From the NCBI RefSeq assembly GCF_001705235.1, contig NZ_MCGV01000001.1:1550001-1614000 (forward strand): a stretch of DNA of 64,000 bases, read 5' to 3'. Source of the DNA: Clostridium pasteurianum (GTDB lineage: Bacteria > Bacillota > Clostridia > Clostridiales > Clostridiaceae). Below the pieces are notes generated by a model. The model saw only the letters and a program-made list of their open reading frames with translations, was not told the origin of the DNA and ran no database searches. A program made the position numbers and the translations under genes. Below, one piece after another: positions 16,755 through 50,268 of the stretch; position 1 is the stretch's first letter; the number at the start of each line of letters is the position of its first letter.

Positions 16755-16860
16755 AGAGTCTTATCAAGAGTGGTGGAGGGACTGGCCCTTTGAAACCCGG
16801 CAACCAGTATTTAATTATACGCGGTGCTAATTCCTGCAGCGATATGCTGATAGATGAGAA
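16755..16860 (+). promoter_or_regulatory. SAM-I riboswitch (S-box)
   Basis: Diagnostic blocks CTTATCAAGAG, GGTGGAGGGACTGGCCC, TGAAACCCGGCAACC, GGTGCTAATTCC and closing GATGAG. P1 pairs CTTATC with GATGAG. By family knowledge, S-adenosylmethionine binding promotes termination and represses methionine synthesis. Confidence 0.97.
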
Positions 16861-39438: not shown

Positions 39439-42123
39439 CTATTTAAGCATCTTTTTAAGTGCTATAAGATCTAATACATTAACTGTTCCATCACCATTAA
39501 TATCTGCTACTGACAGACTTACACCGTTAGGGAATGAAGTTATTGTTCCTTTTAAATATCTCTTTAATGTAATCAAATCTAAAACATTAACTACTCCATC
39601 ACCATTTAAATCTCCTTTTTTAATTTCGGGAGTTGGATTAACATTTGGAGCAACATCATCCATGTATGATGATAACCATGCCATAGGAGCATTCCAGTTA
39701 ATTGTAATTTCGTTTGTTGACCATGCTTCTATGTTATCTATATATGACTGTTCTGCTGGCTGACTACCTGGCTGCCATCCTGTACTCTTAACATATGGAT
39801 CCTGAAGAGAAGTATTTGGTCCGCCTGATAAACATCCTGCTGGTGCAGTAGGGAATGTTGGATCAGCTTGATGTGCAAAGAAACGATGATGTGGATTTAA
39901 GAGCGGATGAGTTCCATATCCAGTTACATAACTTTGTACATTAGGGTTACGTCCAAGTAAGTAATCCATATTTTGAGCTACACCATTGATATATTTTGCA
40001 TCTTTACTAAAGTCATAAGCATATGCCATTACAATTGCATCATTAGCAACAAATGAATTTGAACCCCATGGATATCCTTTAACTATTTTTCCTTTTACAT
40101 CATGATAAGTTGTATCAATCATTGATTCTGCAAGTGAAGTACCATATCCTTGGTTAGACTGTTCAGCAAGTAACTTGTCTGCTTCTGCTTCTATGTTAGC
40201 TTTTGCTTTAGCTACATCAGTTGATGGTAAATTATTAGGTACAGTTGCAAGAGTTATTGTTCCTACAGTTGCTGTATTACCCCAATCAAAGCATCCTGCT
40301 TGTCCACCAGCTTCTCCACCATCTAGAGTATTTTGTACTGTTAAATAATATGGAGACTTCTGTATATAATCTAAATATTCTTGTTTTCCTGTTGTAGCAT
40401 AAAGTTCACAAGCTGCCCAGTAAAACTCATCATCGAAATGATCATCGTAGTATGCTCCACCGCCTATATCGCTTTTGCCTGGAACAACTTTAGGATGTTT
40501 AAGTGCTGCTTGCCAAGCACTTTCTGCTGCAGTTAAACATTTAGTTGAAAATTCTGCATCCCTCGTTTTCCATATACGTGATGATTGTGCTGCTGTTGCT
40601 GCAAGATTTAAAGTTGCTGAAGTACTAGGTGGCTGCAAATAACGTTTCTTAGTATCCTGATCTGGACGAATTCCAAGACCTGTCCATGACTCATCACATG
40701 CCTTATGATGTACCATACCAGCATAATCAGAATTTTCACTTGGAGTAACCTGAAGTTTAAGCATCATTTCCATCTGCCAACGTGCTTCATCAAGTATATC
40801 AGGTGTTCCATTACCACTTTCAGGTATGTTCATAGTTTTATCTGCAAAAGGAGCTTTTGTAGTTTCATCCTTATCTTTTCCATCGCCATTATATAATGCA
40901 CGCTCATACTGATTCATCATAGTCCATACTGATATTCCACCATTTACAACATATTTACCATGATCTCCTGCATCATACCATCCACCTGTTACGTCCTTGG
41001 TGTAATTTCCTATATTACTGTACCAAGTTCCAGATGCATTACCCATTACATCACTTGGATGTCCTGCTGGACGTGCTAAGTCATCCCTTCCACAGTAAGG
41101 CATCTGTATTGCTATACCACTTCTAGAGTGATAAAAATACTTTATAGCATCCTGCTTTAACTGTGAATATATATCATTTTCGATATTAAAAGGTACACTA
41201 GTATTTGTAGCCGCTTTAGCCTTGTCTACTTCTAAAGTGTAGCCTTTCCCTGCTACATTGTAATCACTAAAGTCAATAATATGAACCTGATCTCCTGATG
41301 CATGATCAACCTGATCATTATTAAACACTTGTGTCTTTCCTGATTTTACAACTTTTCCCGTACTATCTTTTAATCTCCATGCTATTGGAGTTGTAGAATC
41401 TGATGATACTGTTGCTTTTTTCTCAAGTCCAGCATAATAACCTACCTGATTTACTCTTATTCCATCATCATAAAAAGTTGAGAATATACTTGCATCTTTA
41501 TTTGTATACTCTGGATCCGTTAAATGTATATTATCGAAACTAAATTTTACTGGAAGTTCCTTACCTACAGTATTTGGATCACCAATATGGAATGCAAATT
41601 CTGCTATTGTAGGTTCACTGATATTAGGAGTAAAATCATCCTTTATAGTCGTAGGTACATTTGCTTTTAACTTAACATTCTCCCAATTACCATAATGCCA
41701 GTATTGTGTATATGGATCTTTTGGCATAGCTATTTGAGGATATATCTCGCAATCCTTATCTGCTGTTACTGTAAATTCAATATGATATTTATGTCCTGGT
41801 TGAAGTGTTAAATTTCTATGTCTGAATTGTACATCCCATATGTTTGGCTGAGTTCCTGTCGCTGGATCGCCACCTATTTTTGTAACAGTAATATTGAAAG
41901 TACCACCTGAAATGTCAAAGTCACCATGGGCTGGTGCAGTTTCAACTTCTGTCCATGGTAAACCAATGCCACCCTCAAAAGTACTATTGTCTAAAAGATC
42001 ATGCGTTCCGTAATTACTGTTTGGATTTGTCGGTATAGGCCTTGCATAACAAGTACTAGCGAAACCAATTCCTGCAGCAATTGAAGCAGTTACCATCAAT
42101 GATAGTAATTTTTTTCTTAACAT
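39439..42123 (-). CDS. Cellulosomal family 9 glycoside hydrolase with CBM4-like, Ig and dockerin domains
   Basis: Secreted endoglucanase-type enzyme of 894 residues. It has a signal peptide (1 to about 28), then a carbohydrate-binding module of family 4/9 type (about 40-205). A CelD-type Ig-like module follows (about 215-310, IRVNQVGYYAGLEKKATV). The GH9 catalytic domain has GGWYDAGDHGKYV near 383, HHRFFAHQ, and acid NEITINWNAP near 805. A type I dockerin has two calcium repeats (GDLNGDGVVNVLDL, ADINGDGTVNVLDL) at about 834-894. All catalytic residues are present. No scaffoldin or other cellulosome gene is in the window. It has its own promoter and a possible CcpA site. Confidence 0.95.
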   Translation of the reverse strand: MLRKKLLSLMVTASIAAGIGFASTCYARPIPTNPNSNYGTHDLLDNSTFEGGIGLPWTEVETAPAHGDFDISGGTFNITVTKIGGDPATGTQPNIWDVQFRHRNLTLQPGHKYHIEFTVTADKDCEIYPQIAMPKDPYTQYWHYGNWENVKLKANVPTTIKDDFTPNISEPTIAEFAFHIGDPNTVGKELPVKFSFDNIHLTDPEYTNKDASIFSTFYDDGIRVNQVGYYAGLEKKATVSSDSTTPIAWRLKDSTGKVVKSGKTQVFNNDQVDHASGDQVHIIDFSDYNVAGKGYTLEVDKAKAATNTSVPFNIENDIYSQLKQDAIKYFYHSRSGIAIQMPYCGRDDLARPAGHPSDVMGNASGTWYSNIGNYTKDVTGGWYDAGDHGKYVVNGGISVWTMMNQYERALYNGDGKDKDETTKAPFADKTMNIPESGNGTPDILDEARWQMEMMLKLQVTPSENSDYAGMVHHKACDESWTGLGIRPDQDTKKRYLQPPSTSATLNLAATAAQSSRIWKTRDAEFSTKCLTAAESAWQAALKHPKVVPGKSDIGGGAYYDDHFDDEFYWAACELYATTGKQEYLDYIQKSPYYLTVQNTLDGGEAGGQAGCFDWGNTATVGTITLATVPNNLPSTDVAKAKANIEAEADKLLAEQSNQGYGTSLAESMIDTTYHDVKGKIVKGYPWGSNSFVANDAIVMAYAYDFSKDAKYINGVAQNMDYLLGRNPNVQSYVTGYGTHPLLNPHHRFFAHQADPTFPTAPAGCLSGGPNTSLQDPYVKSTGWQPGSQPAEQSYIDNIEAWSTNEITINWNAPMAWLSSYMDDVAPNVNPTPEIKKGDLNGDGVVNVLDLITLKRYLKGTITSFPNGVSLSVADINGDGTVNVLDLIALKKMLK

Positions 42124-42139
42124 TACTTTTCCCCCTTCA

Positions 42140-42153
42140 ATAAATCGATTACA
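42140..42153 (+). promoter_or_regulatory. cre-like site in the cellulase leader
   Basis: ATAAATCGATTACA matches 12 of 14 positions of TGWAANCGNTNWCA, between the predicted transcription start and the GH9 start codon. A roadblock site for CcpA is plausible. Confidence 0.4.
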
Positions 42154-42224
42154 AGGGTATCTTATACAAAACCATGAATAATATAACTTTTATTACTATT
42201 TTGGATAAAATATCCTACATTGTT

Positions 42225-42253
42225 ATAATACATTATTTACTCTTATATGTCAA
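42225..42253 (-). promoter_or_regulatory. Sigma-A promoter of the GH9 gene
   Basis: Minus strand TTGACA, 17 bases, TATTAT; predicted leader of about 95 bases. Confidence 0.75.
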
Positions 42254-42458
42254 TATATAAGTAAACTTTTTTATTTACTTGATAAAAGTATTCAAATTCA
42301 TCAATAATATTTTAATATTCGTAGTATTGCTTATTTTTCTAGCTATTATAAGAACATTTTCTGCAATATTTTTGCTTAACATATGCGTAATATATTTTTT
42401 AACAAAAAACAGTTATTTTTGAATGTTAACTAAAGTTAATTGCTTACTTTACCTTTCA

Positions 42459-42540
42459 AAAAATAAGTATAGGGAAATTCAAATTTAATTTCACAATTAT
42501 CTTTGTAAAATTAAATTTGAATTTCCCTATACTTATTTTT
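42459..42540. repeat. Isolated 82-base palindrome
   Basis: Arms of about 37 bp (beginning AAAATAAGTATAGGGAAATT) with about one mismatch and a 6- to 8-base loop. No gene ends nearby on either strand. It lies between the riboswitch and the cellulase promoter. It could be a terminator-like end of a lost gene or a small palindromic element. Confidence 0.75.
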
Positions 42541-42696
42541 CATAATTCTCAATTTGTACCATTAAAGTTGAAAAACGAATTTTTCAAAAATAGAATAATT
42601 TTCATAAGTAACTAACTGCCATTTAAATTATTTTTCAAAAAAACATTTAAATGTTTAATTAATCTAATATTATTTACATCCTATGTGAAAATTTTA

Positions 42697-42780
42697 TTAA
42701 ATAATATATTCCATAATTTGCAATATTCTTGATTCTTTAATCCTAGTATCGCAAAATTGCCTTATTATAACTTCTAACAC
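42697..42780 (-). other. Short open frame just after the c-di-GMP-II terminator
   Basis: GTG-initiated frame of 27 codons (begins MLEVIIRQFCDTRIKESR). GGGAGG abuts the start, which is too close for good initiation. It may be a leader peptide, the remnant of a lost target gene, or chance. The rest of 42541-42696 holds nothing recognised. Confidence 0.15.
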
Positions 42781-42797
42781 CTCCCACAATTATCTAG

Positions 42798-42839
42798 CAA
42801 ACAAAAACCAACAATTAACTAAAACTAATTAATTGTTGG
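42798..42839 (-). terminator. Expression-platform terminator of the c-di-GMP-II riboswitch
   Basis: Minus strand CCAACAATTAA (10-base loop) TTAATTGTTGG followed by TTTTTGTTTG. Its 5' arm begins at the last bases of the aptamer (CCGACC), allowing mutually exclusive folding. Confidence 0.85.
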
Positions 42840-42922
42840 TCGGTCGCACTATTAGCTCCAAATTCCCTAAGTGCCCATACTAAAGAAATTTATCATTGCT
42901 TCCAAGCAAATGGATATTTCTT
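42838..42922 (-). promoter_or_regulatory. c-di-GMP-II riboswitch aptamer
   Basis: Minus strand blocks GGAAGCAATGATAAAT, TGGGCACTT and AGTGCGACCGACC match the class II cyclic di-GMP aptamer as I remember it from C. difficile (GGAAACAATGATGAAT, GGGCACTT, AGTGCAACCGACC). The GCACT/AGTGC stem between the last two blocks is intact. The aptamer is followed at once by a terminator. The nearest intact gene downstream on the same strand is the GH9 cellulase, 715 bases away. Confidence 0.85.
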
Positions 42923-42924
42923 AT

Positions 42925-42954
42925 ATTTTAGCTATATTTTACTACAAAAGTAAA
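42925..42954 (-). promoter_or_regulatory. Probable promoter of the c-di-GMP-II leader
   Basis: Minus strand TTTACT, 18 bases, TAAAAT, immediately before the aptamer. Confidence 0.45.
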
Positions 42955-43050
42955 TTAAAATCAAGTTTAGATTAAAATCAGTATAACTATAATTTTGTTC
43001 TTAAATTTAATTGCTAATGCAATAAATTCCAGATACAAAATTGCTCAAAT

Positions 43051-43120
43051 AAAAAATCCTACTTAAACTTTTACTTAGTATATTTCAAATAAAATTACTA
43101 AGTAAAAGTTTAAGCAGGAT
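43051..43120 (-). terminator. Terminator after the 43145 gene
   Basis: A stem of about 23 bp (CCTGCTTAAACTTTTACTTA pairs with TAAGTAAAAGTTTAAGTAGG, one mismatch) followed on the minus strand by a T-run. Confidence 0.85.
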
Positions 43121-43144
43121 AAATCTGCGAACAAAATGCACGTA

Positions 43145-43636
43145 TTATTTTCTGTCCGCTAAAGATAACATTTCGTTTACAACATCAATATATTTTTGTG
43201 AAACCTGTGGACATTTAAGTAATATATTATCCACAACATAATCAATATTATTGTCATCTATCTTCTTAAAGTTTTTATTCTCTAAAAAGATCATGCCATC
43301 ACCGTCAAGATAATTATAAATCTTTTCAACTACACCTGACTGCATTACCTGATCATTTTCAAGACAATTTTGGCCAAAATATAATACACCATCTACAACT
43401 GCAAATTCAGCATACACGTATTCTTTAAGTGATTTCATTAGCTTATTTTCATTGTATTTAATGTGCTCAACATGTTTTAAGTCTAATACATTGTATTCAT
43501 GATCTTTTCTTGATAACACACATCTTAAGTCTAAATCCGTAAGTCTCTTTTTAACCTTTTCCGAAAAATGCTCACCAAGTTCCGACATGAACATTTTTAT
43601 AGATATTGTAGTTTTTCTTCTATTATTTACTCTCAA
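43145..43636 (-). CDS. Hypothetical protein, 163 residues
   Basis: I do not recognise the family. The start is TTG at 43636 behind AAAGGAGAG. The protein is soluble and charged, with no signal peptide or membrane helix. It contains a mid-region VYAEFAVVDGVLYFGQNCLE that looks like a beta hairpin and an Asp/Asn-rich stretch near residue 125. It has its own promoter, a leader hairpin resembling an attenuator, and a strong terminator, so it is probably a real expressed gene. Confidence 0.7.
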   Translation of the reverse strand: MRVNNRRKTTISIKMFMSELGEHFSEKVKKRLTDLDLRCVLSRKDHEYNVLDLKHVEHIKYNENKLMKSLKEYVYAEFAVVDGVLYFGQNCLENDQVMQSGVVEKIYNYLDGDGMIFLENKNFKKIDDNNIDYVVDNILLKCPQVSQKYIDVVNEMLSLADRK

Positions 43637-43664
43637 TATAAACTCTCCTTTTTATATATTAGTT

Positions 43665-43688
43665 AAAAAAAACACCTCTATAAAGGTG
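43665..43688 (-). terminator. Leader hairpin / possible attenuator of the 43145 gene
   Basis: Minus strand CACCT TTATAG AGGTG followed by TTTTTTTT, between the promoter at 43757-43785 and the start codon at 43636. It would stop most transcripts unless disrupted. Confidence 0.55.
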
Positions 43689-43756
43689 AACTCTATTGAA
43701 TTAGTTTCTATCTTAAATATTGATAATGTTTTAGATAACTGCTCCTTATATTAAAT

Positions 43757-43785
43757 ATTATAGCATAAATAATGATAATGAGCAA
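43757..43785 (-). promoter_or_regulatory. Sigma-A promoter with Fur-box-like sequence
   Basis: Minus strand TTGCTC, 17 bases, TATAAT. The spacer carries AATAATGATAATGA on the plus strand, which resembles two of three hexamers of a Fur box; the Fur reading is speculative. Confidence 0.5.
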
Positions 43786-43885
43786 ATTTTATTTATATTG
43801 AGTATTGATTTTTATATAAATATATGATATATTTAAATATTTCACTTGGACTTGCATTCTAAAACTTGAGTATTATTTTTAATTT

Positions 43886-49997: not shown

Positions 49998-50170
49998 TGA
50001 AGATAGTGGGAGAGTTATGGCTGTTGCCATGCACCGAAGAAGTAAATCTTTCAGGTATCTATTAATATAGATATGACCGTTATTGGATGAACCCTTGGAG
50101 AGACTCTTAATGAGCACCGAAGGAGCAAGCCATATGGCGAAACTCTCAGGTAAAAGGACAGGGACAGATA
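49998..50170 (+). promoter_or_regulatory. Tandem glycine riboswitch
   Basis: Two successive aptamers. The first has GGGAGAGTTATGG, GCACCGAAGAAGTAAATC and TTTCAGGTA ... GACCGTTATTGGA. The second has GGAGAGACTC, GAGCACCGAAGGAGCAAG, AACTCTCAGGTAAAAGGACA. This is the canonical glycine class with its short linker. The GTGGGAG at its 5' edge can pair with CTCCCA near 50220, and TCTCCA near 50230 can pair with the permease ribosome site TGGAGG, so control may be at translation. Confidence 0.94.
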
Positions 50171-50268
50171 ACATATCTTTCAAGAGTAATATATAAATTA
50201 CTTCACTTGAATCTTATCTACTCCCATTTGTATCTCCAATCATAAAACACTTACTATGGAGGGATAAA

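Follow-up and report, generated by a model that had tools for sequence, protein, structure and literature searches.

The regulatory target of a riboswitch is usually sought in the gene that follows it, and the locus studied here raises the question of what a switch controls when no such gene is present. In Clostridium pasteurianum, a c-di-GMP-II riboswitch with a complete terminator lies on the minus strand upstream of a cellulosomal GH9 cellulase gene. An earlier note had left three readings of it, namely a very long leader into the cellulase, an orphaned switch, or a short RNA as the output. We analyzed the locus within its window, the whole stretch of 64,000 nucleotides (contig NZ_MCGV01000001.1, positions 1,550,001 to 1,614,000), and compared it with three other genomes of the genus (G001, G002, and G003, the last being the nearest relative among the genomes compared) and with a survey of 83 class II switches.

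An intact class II aptamer with a substituted ligand contact

The covariance-model search of the window, a check that the earlier note had proposed, matched the Rfam family RF01786 at positions 42912–42830 of the minus strand, with 66.9 bits against a gathering score of 53.5 and an E-value of 8.7e-13 over the window. The match covers the full model (positions 1–84), in agreement with the claim that the c-di-GMP-II aptamer is intact.

Thirteen ligand-contact nucleotides are listed in PMC7288161 for 3Q3Z, the C. acetobutylicum aptamer. Compared with this contact table, the window aptamer keeps 12 of the 13, A69 being replaced by G. Position 69 is an A in 82 of the 83 surveyed aptamers, the window holding the sole G69, and position 70 is an A in 80 of them; all 13 contacts are kept in just 20 of the 83. 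The A69-to-G change is absent from the earlier note and was found during the follow-up. A class II reporter of C. difficile has an A70G mutant as its dead control, in a numbering of its own that may differ from that of 3Q3Z (PMC11706538). Because contact A69 is a G, the response to c-di-GMP is uncertain in the window strain: the substitution could make the switch weaker or shift it to a different ligand, and this copy of the aptamer may be dead, weaker, or retuned. It is also a natural mutant useful for binding tests.

The variant family RF03169 (c-di-GMP-II-GAG) scores the window aptamer at 45.7 bits, above the cut-off of 40 bits but below the 66.9 bits of the parent family, which argues against a GAG variant; the same cut-off is passed by three genus aptamers that have A69. 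The gap between parent and variant scores is 21 bits in the window versus 32–38 bits in four other genus aptamers with A69, the letters GAG presumably standing for nucleotides 69, 70, and 73.

The aptamer of the locus in G003 matches all 13 contacts of 3Q3Z at a constant offset of one, and the other G003 copy matches 10. Because of this complete match, 3Q3Z may well be the sensor at the G003 version of the locus, and a crystal structure of the locus sensor may thus already exist.

A terminator switch with predicted ON polarity

The aptamer is followed by an intrinsic terminator, T1 (42798–42841, minus strand), made of a 16-pair hairpin (42841–42806) and a T-rich tail. T1 begins within the 3′ strand of aptamer P1 (GACCAACAATT...), which serves as its 5′ arm, and the two structures should therefore be mutually exclusive. 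The classic terminator switch described from the letters was thus recovered intact. The consensus scan listed two terminator-like sites in 42000–43800, including T1, where 0.3 were expected from shuffles. The terminator scan called T1-like terminators at 61 of the 83 surveyed switches but not the T1 of G001, which has one mismatch. In C. difficile, c-di-GMP induces class II switches (PMC3649979); this, together with the overlap geometry of T1 and P1, suggests that the window riboswitch should be an ON switch.

The promoter assigned to the switch found mixed support. A sigma-70-like site (TTGATT-17-TAAAAT) is present at 42936–42964 on the minus strand, and its TAAAAT box is kept in G003; however, the match is weak (9 of 12), and promoter-like sites in the region number 21 versus 14.8 (sd 3.3) in shuffles.

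A second terminator-like hairpin behind the switch

The palindrome reported downstream of the switch has a terminator-like nature that the earlier note did not mention. This element, T2 (42459–42540, minus strand), consists of a 38-nt inverted repeat with 97% complementarity, followed by TTTTTT, and has a fold of −42.4 kcal/mol in our own hairpin scan, and it is the likely end of a c-di-GMP-gated RNA. T2 was not listed by the consensus terminator scan, possibly because its count stops at 20 pairs. When 15 pairs of T2 were aligned by hand between the window and G003, from the foot of the stem, 4 were found changed on both sides, 0 on one side, and 11 unchanged.

The scan with a fixed hairpin length listed no T2 for G003 and G002 and was repeated over all hairpin lengths. 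As this second scan showed the G003 T2 only inside a larger fold (209–309), that hairpin was folded alone. A later hairpin followed by Ts is present before the next gene in all four genomes, at 293–367 nt after the aptamer end in the window, 232–279 in G003 (folded alone), 274–321 in G002, and 155–189 in G001. The all-length scan also gave a weaker window fold at 146–239 (−16.2), which we took as chance.

The order of aptamer, T1, T2, promoter, and GH9 gene is the same in the window and G003. In one global alignment, their identity is 0.82 over the aptamer, 0.84 over T1, 0.56 over the next 215 nt, 0.88 over the 41 nt before T2, 0.46 over the T2 hairpin, whose arms differ in length, 0.67 from T2 to the promoter, and 0.80 over the promoter region (42257–42173). 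The full alignment has an identity of 0.67; 50 shuffles of G003 averaged 0.59 and reached at most 0.615. The 215 nt after T1 are thus no more similar than expected by chance.

The neighbors of the switch change across the genus

Directly upstream of the window switch lies a gene for a 163-aa protein without a Pfam match (43145–43636, minus strand). It is matched once per genome in all four and lies near the switch in each. The gene is at 1659849 and the switch at 1660451 in G001; the order is reversed in G002, with the switch at 68616 and the gene at 69276; and in G003 the gene (646068) is followed by MarR-like and transporter-like genes and then by the switch (648479). A kinase-like gene is nearby in G001 and G002, these gene names being read from the sequence. 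Relatives of the 163-aa gene were found in 59 of the 206 genomes searched, and no c-di-GMP-II aptamer was found around the 14 that were scanned. In a tree of the 83 aptamers with their following bases, the four loci are not grouped (their common node has a support of 0.0 and 10 tips), and the window, G003, and the window genome's own paralogue L057 come together at 0.83. The orthology of the four loci hence rests on the neighboring gene.

The leader of the 163-aa gene contains a short CACC...GGTG hairpin (window 43688–43673), a T-rich run, and then a ribosome-binding site. By eye, a similar hairpin precedes the gene in all four genomes (the equivalents being L219, L218, and L217), and it looks like an attenuator.

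Downstream of the switch, the GH9 cellulase gene (39439–42123, minus strand; CBM_4_9, CelD_N, and dockerin) has a near-consensus promoter of its own, as had been claimed: TTGACA-17-TATTAT at 42253–42225, with 11 of 12 matches and conservation in G003. Both T2 and this promoter stand between the switch and the cellulase, contrary to what a 5′ leader of the GH9 gene would require. Comparison of the downstream genes in relatives, which had been suggested as a check, likewise spoke against the long leader. GH9 follows the switch in the window and G003 only; in G002 the gene behind it is the 163-aa gene, and in G001 an oppositely oriented MarR-like gene is followed by a glutathione-peroxidase-like gene (names again read from the sequence). 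The protein search with GH9 gave no match in G002 and only distant matches in G001, none at the locus, and no c-di-GMP-II aptamer was found around six GH9 relatives outside the genus (flanks of 1.5–3 kb, one without flank). Since the gene next to the switch changes across the four genomes, the cellulase is probably just a neighbor of the switch and not its target.

Between the GH9 promoter and the start codon (42224–42130), the stretch holds GTAGGATATTTTAT and TTTTGTATAAGAT, both of which are also present in G003; it could serve the cellulase as an operator or as part of its leader.

No evident common reading frame between T1 and T2

No intact gene lies directly behind the switch, and the 27-codon frame (42697–42780, minus strand) and palindrome that had been reported there were both recovered. 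The GTG start of this frame overlaps the Shine-Dalgarno-like GGGAGGTG; the frame sits inside a 30-aa TTG frame and has no recognizable counterpart in the relatives, and we judged it not to be a gene. A Shine-Dalgarno-like GGAGGTG or GGGGAGGAG occurs 3′ of T1 in all four genomes, three of which have no start codon at normal spacing from it; the exception is G002, with a 14-aa frame starting at a TTG. Frames of at least 10 aa on both strands were compared by eye in the four genomes, and none between T1 and T2 is evidently shared, leaving no conserved frame between the switch and the final terminator in any of the four. A small peptide encoded between T1 and T2 was rejected, as no listed frame of at least 10 aa looks common to the four genomes, and so was a type I toxin–antitoxin layout, since frames on the strand opposite this RNA do not exceed 32 aa.

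The 41-nt block directly before T2 (42542–42582, minus strand; 88% identity to G003) is common to the window and G003 only. No RNA motif common to all four was found between T1 and T2, a stretch that is hardly conserved. The RNA was scored for base-pairing with the starts of 34 minus-strand genes in the window. GH9 was not among the eight strongest pairings, but this ranking says little because it was run without a shuffled control.

The locus departs from the usual class II layout

The RF01786 search covered 206 genomes, of which 112 had a match, and the survey was drawn from among the matches listed, which favors strong ones. It comprises 79 fetched stretches plus the window, L054, L056, and L057, with L103 placed by DNA match and L102 left out at its contig end. 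Sense frames of at least 60 aa, called mechanically and thus including shadows of opposite-strand genes, as in L098, begin within 150 nt in 69 of the 83 switches, at 151–300 nt in 9, and further away in 5. A protein-sized frame within 300 nt, as seen in 78 of the 83, is hence the class II norm. Three of the five with a distant frame (the window, L054, and L100) are the studied locus in three species; in the other two, L097 and L142, an oppositely oriented gene follows. For the G001 copy, L098, the distance is recorded as 237 nt owing to a frame antisense to the MarR-like gene. A hairpin followed by Ts, more than 60 nt away and before the first frame, was found in 7 of the 83: the four copies of the locus, L145, L097, and L142. 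The folds of L097 and L142 are long and loose and fall within the antisense gene or immediately behind it.

A candidate c-di-GMP-gated RNA and its alternatives

Taken together, T2, the changing neighbors, and the lack of an evident shared frame fit best, among the earlier readings, with a predicted short RNA as the output. We consider it probable that the locus is a c-di-GMP-gated stand-alone RNA unit of about 300–470 nt, in which the conserved part is the switch with a predicted terminated short RNA while the neighbors change. The locus would be an independent transcription unit with its own promoter, the aptamer, T1, ~260 untranslated-looking bases, and T2 as the final terminator. Without ligand, T1 would form and leave a stub of ~130 nt. 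With ligand, P1 and the pseudoknot would hold the CCAA strand, T1 would not form, and transcription would proceed to T2, yielding an RNA of ~470 nt in the window strain and roughly 300–430 nt in the relatives. We infer that this RNA, and not the cellulase, would be the output, probably acting in trans, either through base pairing or by sequestering a protein.

The switch might instead be a relic that served a lost gene; it would then be left without any target and in decay, with A69-to-G as a sign of this. The Shine-Dalgarno-like motif after T1 in all four genomes, three of them without a normally spaced start codon, fits such an orphaned switch, as do the low conservation 3′ of T1 and the window being alone with G69 among the 83 aptamers. 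G002 and G053 have similar switches ahead of a CheY-CheC-GGDEF-like operon, and the CheC-like protein is only distantly matched (25–28% identity, among the best rows) in G000, G001, and G003. However, G002 holds the operon switch as well as the studied locus, which is thus not simply an operon remnant; a decayed CheY-CheC-GGDEF operon was rejected on this ground and because, of the four genomes, only G002, the source of the query, has a close CheC-like match. Plain loss and decay are further weakened by the 82% and 84% identity of the aptamer and T1 to G003, compared to 56% over the next 215 nt. A lost target accounts for G69 and the Shine-Dalgarno-like motif but leaves unexplained that the aptamer and T1 are recognizable in four species, with a later terminator retained and T2 kept with compensatory changes, and we find the relic unlikely.

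A long leader is still less probable. In that case, the ON-state polymerase would pass T2, adding c-di-GMP control to the cellulase in the window species and G003. GH9 is on the same strand and in the same order in both species, their GH9 proteins are 67–70% identical, and another c-di-GMP-II switch of the genome precedes a PilZ-GT2 gene, so a link between c-di-GMP and cellulose may exist elsewhere. Intrinsic terminators leak, and some readthrough into GH9 is therefore possible. Yet T2 intervenes in both GH9-bearing genomes, the GH9 promoter is its own and conserved, the locus lacks GH9 in G001 and G002, and no switch was found around the six other GH9 relatives scanned; cellulase control needs T2 readthrough and would apply to just two species. 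It is very improbable that the unit encodes a peptide of ~25 residues from the GTG inside the Shine-Dalgarno-like motif. From this GTG, a frame of 27 codons can be read in the window and a hydrophobic one of 24 codons in G003. However, the start overlaps the ribosome-binding motif, the window and G003 sequences are unlike, the G001 frame ends within a few codons, and the G002 frame is different.

If the stand-alone RNA is real, it would add an RNA arm to c-di-GMP signaling in cellulose-degrading clostridia, and such switches should not be annotated by the next gene on the strand. A far-reaching version, which we regard as speculative, is that the RNA is a genus-wide, c-di-GMP-induced, trans-acting class II sRNA, that the window pocket has been shifted by A69-to-G to another ligand or sensitivity, and that 3Q3Z is the sensor of this RNA and not that of a protein gene. 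A literature search, supplementary tables aside, found no description of a class II switch of the stand-alone-RNA kind. The main text of PMC3879012, on C. acetobutylicum sRNAs, has no relevant riboswitch or c-di-GMP passage, and its supplementary files may list the RNA.

Comparison with known riboswitch-controlled RNAs

The merRNA of Bdellovibrio bacteriovorus, whose aptamer is reportedly of class I, resembles the predicted window RNA in having a c-di-GMP aptamer and no conserved frame downstream. It is a 445-nt RNA, massively expressed and proposed to be a c-di-GMP reservoir, and was not found outside its own lineage by its authors (PMC3627812). The predicted window RNA differs by its class II aptamer and by a terminator switch that would make its length ligand-dependent. 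EutX and Rli55 are trans-acting sRNAs controlled by a B12 riboswitch (PMC7602753); there, as would be the case here, a riboswitch terminator decides if a stand-alone regulatory RNA is made, but B12 turns the RNA off, whereas c-di-GMP should turn the window RNA on.

In C. difficile, c-di-GMP-I switches are present on the RCd11 and RCd12 antitoxin RNAs, and an orphan switch lies between CD2517 and CD2517.1 (PMC11477304). Like the window locus, these are c-di-GMP switches with an RNA product or without a known target; unlike it, they are listed apart from class II and are in two cases antisense to toxin genes, while no frame opposite the window RNA exceeds 32 aa. The same species has a c-di-GMP-II switch with a group I ribozyme (PMC9481103). 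Its aptamer class is that of the window, where the Rfam gathering-score scan listed no group I intron and the expression platform is a plain terminator.

Other switches observed

At L097 (G001:C4:152792-152874) and L142 (G011:C1:1689952-1690035), an ON-type terminator is followed by an opposite thioredoxin/DsbA-like gene (name read from the sequence), and readthrough would make an antisense RNA to this gene. Of all families, c-di-GMP switches are reported to have the strongest tendency towards an antisense arrangement (PMC9943018). L057 (G000:C1:222730-222810) is a c-di-GMP-II switch located 82 nt before a gene for a cellulose-synthase-like GT2 protein with a PilZ domain, on which c-di-GMP could act through both RNA and protein. 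L056 (G000:C1:2474984) precedes a 99-aa protein without a Pfam match and L101 (G003:C2:3752879) a 135-aa protein, the two sharing LGG..L.TQNFDV; no terminator was called at this third switch by the fixed-hairpin-length scan. Within the window, FMN (7493–7379, minus strand), SAM (16758–16860, plus strand), and glycine (50085–50171, plus strand) riboswitches also scored above their gathering scores.
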